A DNA stretch of 51,099 nt from Gemmatimonadaceae bacterium (GTDB lineage Bacteria; Gemmatimonadota; Gemmatimonadetes; Gemmatimonadales; Gemmatimonadaceae), in contig CANGXD010000011.1 in assembly GCA_947457545.1 (NCBI GenBank), positions 1 to 51,099 of the forward strand, read 5' to 3'. Numbering within the stretch: position 1 is the first letter of the stretch; the number at the start of each line of letters is the position of its first letter. The notes under the pieces are model-generated. The model was given only the letters and a program-made list of their open reading frames with translations. It was not told the origin of the DNA and made no database searches. Positions 24,971-27,591 of the stretch are shown here, piece after piece. Made by a program: the position numbers and the translations under genes.

Positions 24971-25951
24971 TCACCGGCGCTTGGCGCCCTTCTTTACGGC
25001 CTTCTTTGGGGCGGCCTTTTTGGGCGCTGGCTTGGCCGCCTTCTTGGGCGCGGCCTTTTTGGGTGCTGGCTTGGCGGCCTTCTTGGGGGCCGCCTTCTTG
25101 GGCGCCGGCTTGGCCGCCTTCTTGGGGGCGGCCTTGCTTGGCGCGGCCTTCTTTGGAGCGGGCTTCGCGGCCGCCTTCTTGGGCGCGGCCTTCTTGGCTG
25201 CCTTGGCTGGAGCCTTGGCGGGGGCCTTGGCCGGAGCCTTCGCCGGCGCCGCCTTCTTGTCCGCCTTGGCCGGGGCCTTGGCGGTCTTGGCCGGCGCCTT
25301 CGCCGGAGCCTTGACGGGCGCCGCCTTTACCGGGGCCGCTTTGGCGACGACCGGTTCGGCCTTGGGGGCTTCGGCGACCGCTTCGACCTTTTCCGCCTTC
25401 GGGGCCTTGGGTGCCTTCGGGGCCTTCGGCGCCTTGGGCTCCTTTGGCGCCTTCACCGCCTTGGGCGGCGCGGCGGGCATGTCGTCGTCGCCGATGTCGA
25501 GGTCATCGATCGCGTCGATGGAATCGAGCGAATCGACGGACTCGTCGTCGTCGAGGATGAGATCATCGCCGTCATCTTCGAGCGAGGGCTCGGGGATGTC
25601 GATCTTGGGCTCAGCCTTCGGGGCCTTCGACTTGGGCGCCGGCTTGGGCGCGCCCGGGTTCTTGGGCGGACGGCCGGGACCACGACGCACGATGGGGCGA
25701 CCGAACAGATCGTCCTCGTCGTCCTCGTCGTCGACCATGCCGTCTTCTTCGTACCCGTCGTCGTCCTCGTCGTCGTCGTCGTCCTCGTCGTCGTCCTCGG
25801 CGCTATCCCACAGGGAGTCGCCATCGTCCGACGGAAGGCCGTAGCCGTCGTCATCCTCGTCTTCGTCGTACGACGAGCGTCCGTAGCCCCTCAGATCTTG
25901 CATCTCGTCACCGATCAGATGGAGCTTCTCCAACTCGTCGCCACGCGGCAT
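24971..25951 (-). CDS. Histone H1-like protein with acidic N-terminal half and AT-hook
   Basis: A 326-residue low-complexity protein. Residues about 25-85 are almost all Asp/Glu. A short basic stretch with an AT-hook-like RRGPGRPPK follows (about 88-97), then a second acidic block (about 120-158), and the last ~165 residues repeat Lys/Ala/Pro units such as AKPAPKKAAPKKA, very like the tail of eukaryotic H1 and bacterial AlgP/HctB proteins. The basic tail should bind DNA non-specifically; the acidic part may modulate that or contact another protein (inference). The ATG has AGGAGG 5 nt upstream. The tandem coding repeats are visible as a DNA repeat at 24985-25310. Confidence 0.85.
   Translation of the reverse strand: MPRGDELEKLHLIGDEMQDLRGYGRSSYDEDEDDDGYGLPSDDGDSLWDSAEDDDEDDDDDEDDDGYEEDGMVDDEDDEDDLFGRPIVRRGPGRPPKNPGAPKPAPKSKAPKAEPKIDIPEPSLEDDGDDLILDDDESVDSLDSIDAIDDLDIGDDDMPAAPPKAVKAPKEPKAPKAPKAPKAPKAEKVEAVAEAPKAEPVVAKAAPVKAAPVKAPAKAPAKTAKAPAKADKKAAPAKAPAKAPAKAPAKAAKKAAPKKAAAKPAPKKAAPSKAAPKKAAKPAPKKAAPKKAAKPAPKKAAPKKAAKPAPKKAAPKKAVKKGAKRR
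24985..25310 (-). repeat. Coding tandem repeats of the H1-like tail
   Basis: The DNA encoding the Lys/Ala/Pro tail repeats short units such as CCTTCTTGGG and GGGCGCGGCC with a period of several tens of bases. This makes copy-number change by slippage possible. Confidence 0.6.
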
Positions 25952-26023
25952 GACGCCTCCTCTTCAGGCCTTAAGGAACTCGATAGACGCGCACGCGAAA
26001 GAGTGCACGTATTTCACTTGCTC

Positions 26024-26052
26024 CTAGTACACAGAAGCGGAACCATAGTCAA
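26024..26052 (-). promoter_or_regulatory. Candidate promoter of the H1-like gene
   Basis: On the minus strand TTGACT (complement of 26047-26052) and TACTAG (complement of 26024-26029) are 17 bp apart, giving a start near 26017 and a leader of about 65 nt. The 14-bp repeat element begins only 7 bp upstream of the -35. Confidence 0.4.
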
Positions 26053-26058
26053 GCCCTT

Positions 26059-26461
26059 ACTGCGGTTTGGGTTCCTACGGTAGGGGAACTACGCGAGGGG
26101 AACTACGCGAGGAGACCAACGGGAGGGGAACGACGGGAGGGCGACCACGACCCCGCGACCACGACCCCGCGACCACGACCCCGCGACCACGACCCCGCGA
26201 CCACGACCCCGCGACCACGACCCCGCGACCACGACCCCGCGACCACGACCCCGCGCCCCCGACCCCGCGACCACGACACCGTGACAACGGCCACGACCCA
26301 AACCACGCCTCCGAACCTGCCTCGTTGAGGTCTCGGCAGGAGTCTTCGTCACGGGGTCGTGGGTGTGGCCCGTAGTCGCCCTCCCGTCGTTCCCCTCCCG
26401 TCGTTCCCCTCCCGTTGGTCTCCTCGCGTAGTTCCCCTACCGTAGGAACCCAAACCGCAGT
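26059..26461. repeat. 403-bp element: 87-bp inverted arms around a 14-bp tandem array
   Basis: The left arm (26059-26145) and right arm (26375-26461) are reverse complements over 87 bp apart from swapped copy numbers of two 14-bp units. The left arm has two GGGAACTACGCGAG and one GGGAACGACGGGAG; the right has one and two. Between them lies the array. Apart from the outer edge the left arm itself runs in the same 14-bp register as the array. The right arm touches the final base of the HD-GYP stop codon. Open frames exist on both strands but only because stops are rare in this GC-rich repeat; I call it non-coding. Confidence 0.9.
26143..26282 (+). repeat. 14-bp tandem array (GACCACGACCCCGC units)
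   Basis: Eight perfect copies of GACCACGACCCCGC run from 26143 to 26254, followed by two imperfect copies to 26282 and decayed sequence after that. Since 14 is not a multiple of 3, a gain or loss of one unit shifts any frame read across it. Confidence 0.9.
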
Positions 26462-27591
26462 CAAAGGCGGGGAAGTCCTTCTACTCCGCGCGCAATCACG
26501 ACGGTGAGCGCCTGGTAGACGCGGGGCTCGAGCAGGCGCTCCACCTGGGTGCCGAGGTATTCCAGCGTGGTGCCGGCGCTCATGGGATCGCGGTAGGCGC
26601 GCTTGGAGGTGAGGGCGTCGAAGGCGTCGGCGGCGGTCAGGATGCGGCCGCCGAGGGAGATGTCGGTGCCGGCACGGCCAAAGGGGTAGCCGCCGCCGTC
26701 CCAGTGTTCGTGGTGGTCGCGGATGAAGTGCAGCGCTTCACCCAGGTGATGCAGCGGCTGCAGAATCTCGAGGCCGATTTGCACGTGGTCCTTCACGTGC
26801 GCGAACTCCTCGGCGGTGAGCGGGCCGTTCTTGTTCAGCACCGATTCGCGGATGCCGATCTTGCCCACGTCGTGCAAGCGGCCGGCGGTGTGCACCAGCT
26901 CCACCATGTAATCCGGCTCGCCCAACTCGGCGGCGATCGCGGCGCCCAGTTCGGCGACGCGCTGCGAGTGGCCTCGCAGGTAGAGGTCCTTCGCTTCCAT
27001 GGCGTTGATGAGCGTCTCGGCGACGCTCACGGTCATTTCGCGCAACGCGCCCTTCTCGCGCTCGAGCTGCAACGTCCGCAGCGCAACCTCTTCGCGGATC
27101 ATGCGGTCGACGGCCCGGCGCTCCATGGTGCGCATGCGGCGCAGCATGGCGCGTTCGACCGCCGCCTGCAGATCGGGGAGCTCCACCGGCTTGGTCAGAT
27201 AGTCGAACGCGCCATTGGAGAGCGCCTCGGTGGCGCTGGTGGCGTCGTTGACCGCGGTGAGCATGATGATGCCCAGATCCTGGTCGGCGAGCAGCGCCTT
27301 CGGGACGACTTCGAGGCCGCTCAGGCCCGGCATGCGCAGGTCGCACAGCATGAGCGAGAAGCGCTGGCGTTGCAGCGCCTCGAGCGCGGCGGTGCCGCTC
27401 TCGGCGACTTCGACCTCGAAACCGCGCGTGCGCAGGAAGCGGCTGAGCGCGAGGCGGATAGTGGTTTCGTCGTCGACCACCAGAATGCGCCGTAACGAAT
27501 GGTCGACCGATGCCGCGACGGCCGCTTCGATGGCTTGTACTGGTCCGCTCTGGTGAAGCGATGACAACGAATGGTCCATGGAGATAATCAT
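26461..27591 (-). CDS. HD-GYP response regulator (c-di-GMP phosphodiesterase)
   Basis: A 376-residue protein: a receiver (about 33-150; Asp in LMLCDLRMPG, Lys in YLTKPVE), a coiled linker, and an HD-GYP domain (about 195-376). The HD motif is in GRLHDVGKIGI and the GYP motif in HHEHWDGGGYP, both intact, so it should hydrolyse cyclic di-GMP. Its ATG overlaps the stop of the large kinase upstream by 4 bp (ATGA), which makes that kinase the likely phosphate donor. The stop codon abuts the 14-bp repeat element. A second ATG four codons in is equally possible as start. Confidence 0.95.
   Translation of the reverse strand: MIISMDHSLSSLHQSGPVQAIEAAVAASVDHSLRRILVVDDETTIRLALSRFLRTRGFEVEVAESGTAALEALQRQRFSLMLCDLRMPGLSGLEVVPKALLADQDLGIIMLTAVNDATSATEALSNGAFDYLTKPVELPDLQAAVERAMLRRMRTMERRAVDRMIREEVALRTLQLEREKGALREMTVSVAETLINAMEAKDLYLRGHSQRVAELGAAIAAELGEPDYMVELVHTAGRLHDVGKIGIRESVLNKNGPLTAEEFAHVKDHVQIGLEILQPLHHLGEALHFIRDHHEHWDGGGYPFGRAGTDISLGGRILTAADAFDALTSKRAYRDPMSAGTTLEYLGTQVERLLEPRVYQALTVVIARGVEGLPRL

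Follow-up and report, generated by a model that had tools for sequence, protein, structure and literature searches.

The STRR of cyanobacteria are heptamer repeats, built of 7-nt tandem units. The 23S rRNA-intervening-sequence protein (IVP, PF05635) is a four-helix bundle, and IVPs are not known to have enzymatic activity. For the intervening sequences (IVS) of 23S rRNA, excision by RNase III has been reported and it was proposed long ago that they are mobile, and both the function of the IVP/S23 protein and the origin of IVS are old questions (PMC4990558, accessible portion). Heptamers of the TAACTGA type have been described (PMC4679880, accessible portion), and the inverted GGGAATC heptamer pairs of Xanthomonas are generally not associated with mobile elements (PMC4692102, accessible portion). 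The accessible texts of these two reports draw no link to IVP genes, and neither contains the terms S23, four-helix or 23S. Repeats have also been counted across Gemmatimonadota: Gem. phototrophica has 90, two sister species have 19 and 20, respectively, and individual duplications were suggested as their source; the accessible part of that study contains no connection of the repeats to IVP genes (PMC11237797). At the level of titles and abstracts, preprints and most subscription journals aside, we found no report that links IVP genes to inverted short repeats.

The window analyzed here is a stretch of 51,099 nucleotides from a Gemmatimonas genome (G000; 4.63 Mb in 321 contigs). It contains a palindromic element flanked on both sides by protein genes, and the features are as follows.

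26059..26461, no strand: whole palindromic element of 403 bp without an IVP gene (arm pairing, copy search, Pfam-negative ORFs)
26059..26145, plus strand: left arm, consisting of the cap ACTGCGGTTTGGGTTCC followed by 14-bp units (pairing and repeat analysis)
26141..26289, plus strand: interior array of 14-bp units GCGACCACGACCCC, 10.6 copies (repeat analysis)
26290..26370, no strand: asymmetric core, the corresponding core being inverted in the relative G006 (orientation scores between species)
26375..26461, minus strand: right arm, the reverse complement of the left with unit counts swapped (pairing and repeat analysis)
26461..27591, minus strand: gene of a response regulator with an HD-GYP-type HD domain, the final base of the element being part of its stop codon (ORF and domain search)
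24971..25951, minus strand: downstream gene, named H1-like in the preliminary description (no Pfam match at E 0.001)

Re-reading and pairing confirmed what the preliminary description had given for the element, namely its coordinates, its reverse-complement arms with swapped counts of 14-bp units and the identity of the outer 39 bp of both arms. The left arm holds GGGAACTACGCGAG at 26084 and 26098 and GGGAACGACGGGAG at 26126, and the right arm, read on the minus strand, holds GGGAACTACGCGAG once (26423) and GGGAACGACGGGAG twice (26381 and 26395), with one GAGACCAACGGGAG per arm between the GGGAACTACGCGAG-kind and GGGAACGACGGGAG-kind units. Positions 26059-26149 pair with 26371-26461, so that the arms match over 91 nt at 91%, and the 14-bp period extends from the left arm into the interior array. 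When folded as RNA, both strands form one long stem, with energies of -250.8 kcal/mol (z -16.4) for the plus strand and -306.3 kcal/mol (z -16.2) for the minus strand, and none of 100 shuffles was as good in either case. Such folding is far beyond chance. Two ORFs running over the element (26067-26375 on the plus strand and 26075-26464 on the minus strand) matched no Pfam family at E 1, and an Rfam search of the window returned no match.

Searching the genome and its relatives for the arm sequence, as had been suggested, revealed a multicopy family. G000 contains 57 matching pieces, which we counted as about 14 elements, four of them on contig C218 alone. While 14 of 61 genomes showed some match, strong matches (below E 1e-50) were confined to G000, G006 and G017, all of one genus. 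Phages gave no match to the element, plasmids gave one weak and partial match, in Haladaptatus, and no viral contig contained one exact 20-base pattern of the element. On C218 (L031, 1212-4920), small gene modules that look toxin-antitoxin-like by eye lie in alternation with the four elements, and G017 and G006 lack most of this stretch or differ over it.

Close orthologues of the HD-GYP gene were present in 18 of 30 genomes surveyed. The element lies at the identical position in three of these 18 species (G000, G006 and G017), and the other 15 have no element of the window family there; for two of the 15 the available flank was short. Because three separate assemblies carry the element at the same site, we ruled out that it is a unique assembly artefact. 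In one of them, G006, the match to the HD-GYP gene beside the element (C16:45665-46790; L105, L169) consists of two pieces that overlap, a pattern that a frameshift or an error in sequencing might produce. For most elements of G000, the orthologous site in G006 or G017 is occupied too, and the flanks are mostly 90-95% identical. Searches with joined flanks found element-free sites for A (the window site) and D in G028, for F in G025 and G015 and for G in G025; for the IVP-bearing locus J an element-free counterpart was found in G020. These outgroup sites have diverged too far for the insertion point to be located at base resolution, and none is a base-exact empty site. At site G, the three species have an element of 14-bp units and G028 has an unrelated palindrome (L304, about 1715-2015). 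Since nearly all copies are common to the three sister species, no recent jump was seen among them.

The preliminary description had suggested that the palindrome could form a hairpin in RNA or a cruciform in DNA, or be a site of mobility or recombination. In outline this was borne out, considering that the element is multicopy, that 15 of 18 species lack it at the orthologous site and that its core is inverted in a relative. Its membership, as a gene-less copy, in a family that carries an IVP gene was not visible from the window, and the swapped unit counts are probably not its defining feature.

That membership emerged from one longer copy in each of G006 and G017 (L107 and L119), whose caps, arms and interior array are of the same kind as those of the window element and which encloses an ORF missing from the window copy. 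Aligned with the window element, the left ends of the longer copies agree at 119/132 and 112/133 positions, and the counterpart of the interior array adjoins their left arm. The enclosed ORF, of 126 aa in the G006 copy, scored 74.7 bits against PF05635, and among solved structures it matched 2gsc (XCC0516) with an E value of 1.3e-8. In the case of G000, contigs C6 and C90 each carry a part of the longer copy; its IVP gene was found at C6:202-513, and the genome has two PF05635 matches in all. When a profile of ten IVPs was compared with solved structures, it matched only 2gsc and 2rld, plus a designed protein at E 0.032, and no retroelement accessory protein was among the hits. On this and the evidence given below, we consider it rather probable that the palindrome of 403 bp belongs, as a MITE-like copy without an ORF, to a repeat family whose longer copies carry an IVP gene in the hairpin loop, and that it was likely spread by the IVP in trans.

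The many copies and the lack of an ORF would also fit an ordinary MITE of a DDE transposase that recognizes the ACTGCGGT ends, and conserved ends (ACTGCGGTYKGGGT) are indeed present in 6 of 10 genomes. However, no target-site duplication was seen by eye in the element flanks inspected, and a palindrome family of G028 that has its own gene-bearing copy has quite different ends, so that we regard a DDE transposase as very improbable.

The G028 family provides a second pair of gene-bearing and gene-less copies. On the single 4.72-Mb contig of this genome the family occupies 40 loci, one of which holds an IVP gene within arms 85-87% identical to those of a gene-less copy. Pairing was examined for 22 of the 40 loci; 16 scored at least 29, which is clear pairing, and six scored less. 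The 40 loci span 0.22-1.85 and 3.17-4.60 Mb of the contig, with none between 1.85 and 3.17 Mb; few repeats have been described in a 600-kb region at the terminus (PMC11237797, accessible portion). A third pair was found in G006 and G017, where a further class of palindromes matches the arms of the IVP elements L224 and L229 at 69-82%. Palindromes of this class contain terminator-like GC hairpins followed by T runs.

The layout of a gene between inverted iterated units is also that of the single Y1_Tnp gene found in each of G000, G006 and G017 (L284 at G000:C31, L285 at G017:C127 and L286 at G006:C1), and the palindrome could accordingly be REP-like and mobilized by a Y1 (RAYT-type) transposase, a gene that six of the ten Gemmatimonas tested do not have. 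However, the units around Y1_Tnp are of a different, GGGGTCAGAGTC type, and neither a ACTGCGGT cap nor a 14-bp unit lies within about 1.5 kb on either side of the gene. Furthermore, G028 has no Y1_Tnp match despite its 40 palindrome loci, and G015 has Y1_Tnp, yet among the matches listed none from that genome to the window family goes beyond E 1.6e-6. A Y1 transposase is thus quite unlikely as the mobilizing enzyme.

To see how general the arrangement is, we aligned locally the 600 bp on each side of IVP genes and took an inverted-repeat score of 40 as the cut-off. In the genus Gemmatimonas, 110 PF05635 matches were found and 72 were fetched, seven of which had too little flank (including L242, at a contig end), leaving 65 testable loci. 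Of these, 50 lie between inverted repeats scoring at least 40, and 26 score at least 100; L107 and L119 were known before the test, and without both the count is 48 of 63. The 65 loci fall into at least 12 groups of shared sites, and the survey counts are not independent because many loci are common to several species. Most of the 15 loci without repeats are at one conserved site. None of 232 control positions 2.2-5 kb away reached 40, and flanking inverted repeats were found at none of 27 cold-shock genes (three of 30 loci having been dropped) and at none of 24 loci from the HD-GYP search. Two of 300 random draws scored above 90, because the draws came from loci that hold elements. Two IVP copies of G006 (L199 and L217, on C4 and C24) are 100% identical over the matched stretch and lie in long repeat-rich regions on different contigs.

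The same arrangement extends beyond the genus. In a sample of the phylum, for which the strongest PF05635 matches were taken first and three of 29 loci were set aside because their flanks were too short, 18 of 26 IVP loci had inverted repeats, as did eight of nine on cyanobacterial plasmids, a set in which L287 and L295 are near copies and a control position of L289 also scored 45. The commonest best arm period was 7 nt in all three sets, although it is not universal. Period 7 was found in 18 of 50 loci in the genus (period 14 in eight and 15 in seven), in 12 of 18 in the phylum and in 6 of 6 on cyanobacterial plasmids, where the period analysis took seven of the nine loci. On plasmids of Pseudanabaena galeata (L289) and Anabaena sp. 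90 (L291), the IVP gene is between cas6 and cas4, and on the Nostoc edaphicum plasmid pNe_5 (L292) an IVP gene with GGGAGTA arms lies on the opposite strand between the ribonucleotide reductase beta and alpha genes.

As previously described, the right arm meets the stop codon of the HD-GYP gene: the stop reads TCA at 26461-26463 on the plus strand, and base 26461 is part of both gene and element. For 12 of 13 elements, an open frame has its 3' end no more than 40 nt away, and for nine of the 12 the distance is at most 3 nt; 221 of 1246 random intervals come within 40 nt of such an end. The test used open frames of at least 100 codons and not annotated genes. This preference could mean that the palindrome is a structure serving the host at 3' ends, such as a terminator or an mRNA-stabilizing hairpin, that was spread by ordinary recombination, with IVP genes as passengers that landed in hairpins. 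The terminator-like hairpins in the third-pair palindromes of the same genomes point in the same direction, as does the fixation of most copies across three species. The window element itself, however, has no terminator-like site, and the palindromes that hold IVP genes across the phylum and in cyanobacteria are unrelated and differ in arm sequence from one to the next, which the passenger view would not explain. Overall, we judge a host-serving origin unlikely and favor the reading of the palindrome as a gene-less member of an IVP-carrying family.

Comparison of the three species showed that the interior of the element changes orientation. At the window site, the core of G000 scored 39 forward and 202 in reverse against G006, and 205 forward and 36 in reverse against G017; hence it is reversed in G006. 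At site F, the core is reversed between G000 and the other two species, and at the remaining sites it is forward or ambiguous, the comparisons of sites E and G that involve G017 being ambiguous. The loops of IVP elements flip as well. L206 in G017 and L222 in G006 have flanks running the same way and a reversed gene, with a protein identity of 94%, and more distant IVP pairs (46-65%) look alike in flipping. We excluded as unreliable those flip calls, such as L225-L203 and L230-L231, for which the flank match continues through the gene.

Inversion of the core at two sites, together with the gene modules that alternate with the elements on C218, might suggest an invertible regulatory switch or an integron-like recombination site. 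However, a scan of 25900-26600 for promoters of the sigma-70 type found none, which leaves unsupported both a promoter-like site for such a switch and the candidate -35 of the H1-like gene that had been placed beside the left arm. Integron attC boxes follow the consensus RYYYAAC...GTTRRRY, and the ends of the element, GTT...AAC, are by eye the reverse of this. Considering also that a segment between long inverted repeats can flip without a dedicated enzyme, a switch or integron-like site is extremely improbable.

The arms themselves probably bear traces of exchange. The unit GACCAACGGGAG is in the right arm in all three species and in the left arm in G000 only, and it was therefore likely copied across the hairpin in G000. 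Likewise, the swapped unit counts of the window element would fit tandem slippage combined with copying between arms. We also considered co-evolution of arms as a general signal and rejected it, since it is weak in the window family, where arms of the same element in G000 are only slightly more alike than those of different elements (128.5 versus 117.7), though it is present at IVP sites, where in 25 of 41 loci the comparison with the locus's own arm scored higher than all cross comparisons (mean 142 versus 93).

What we observed of the gene-less IVP-family copy is thus the caps, arms and array common with IVP copies, the roughly 14 copies, the sharing of sites between relatives and absences elsewhere, the location at 3' ends and the inversion of the core. 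As for mechanism, the IVP, alone or with a host enzyme, may bind the stem of short repeats and promote copying or insertion. Insertion beside stop codons would be tolerated through folding of the transcript into a long stem, which RNase III would probably cut as in the IVS of 23S rRNA; by this analogy, the sites next to stop codons and between plasmid genes (cas6-cas4 and ribonucleotide reductase) suggest that the folded RNA stem makes insertions harmless. Unit numbers would then change by slippage, the arms would copy from one another and recombination between them would flip the core, which together would give the swapped counts of the window element. No mobilizing enzyme was found for the element. 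As a partner, reverse transcriptase was rejected, as nine of ten Gemmatimonas tested, including G000, G006, G017 and G028, have no PF00078 match, and G004 has one weak match with a stop.

More broadly, and tentatively, as a possibility falling a little short of probable, PF05635 may be the core of a widespread mobile DNA, consisting of hairpins of 7-nt repeats with a non-enzymatic four-helix-bundle gene as the sole gene and spreading mostly gene-less; the IVS of 23S rRNA would be one niche of it, and many heptamer arrays of cyanobacteria and others would be its remains. If so, many puzzling palindromes of short repeats in bacteria would be tied to one gene family. The link between IVP genes, inverted short-repeat stems and gene-less copies would offer a testable answer on the function of IVP/S23 and the origin of IVS, and it may supply a cause for bursts of repeats. 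For elements whose inverted arms have a 7- or 14-nt period and are common with an IVP-bearing copy in the genome group, we propose the term IVP hairpin element, and the window element has both properties.

Among the known systems most similar to it, the window element shares with the IVS of 23S rRNA a long terminal inverted stem, a size of about 0.4 kb and an IVP gene in the loop of gene-bearing relatives (PMC4990558, accessible portion). Unlike IVS, it lies between protein genes and not in 23S rRNA, its stem is made of short tandem units, and its family has gene-less copies, several per genome. Like MITEs, it is short, ORF-less and multicopy, has inverted ends and is accompanied by a gene-bearing copy in the same genome, whereas its partner protein is an IVP and not a known transposase and target-site duplications were not seen in the flanks inspected. 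The layout of a gene between inverted iterated units recalls REP/RAYT systems and the Y1 gene of these very genomes, although the units differ and the palindromes of G028 occur without a Y1 match. Finally, 7-nt units are shared with the GGGAATC heptamers of Xanthomonas, which often form inverted pairs (PMC4692102, accessible portion), and, as tandem units, with the TAACTGA arrays (PMC4679880, accessible portion).
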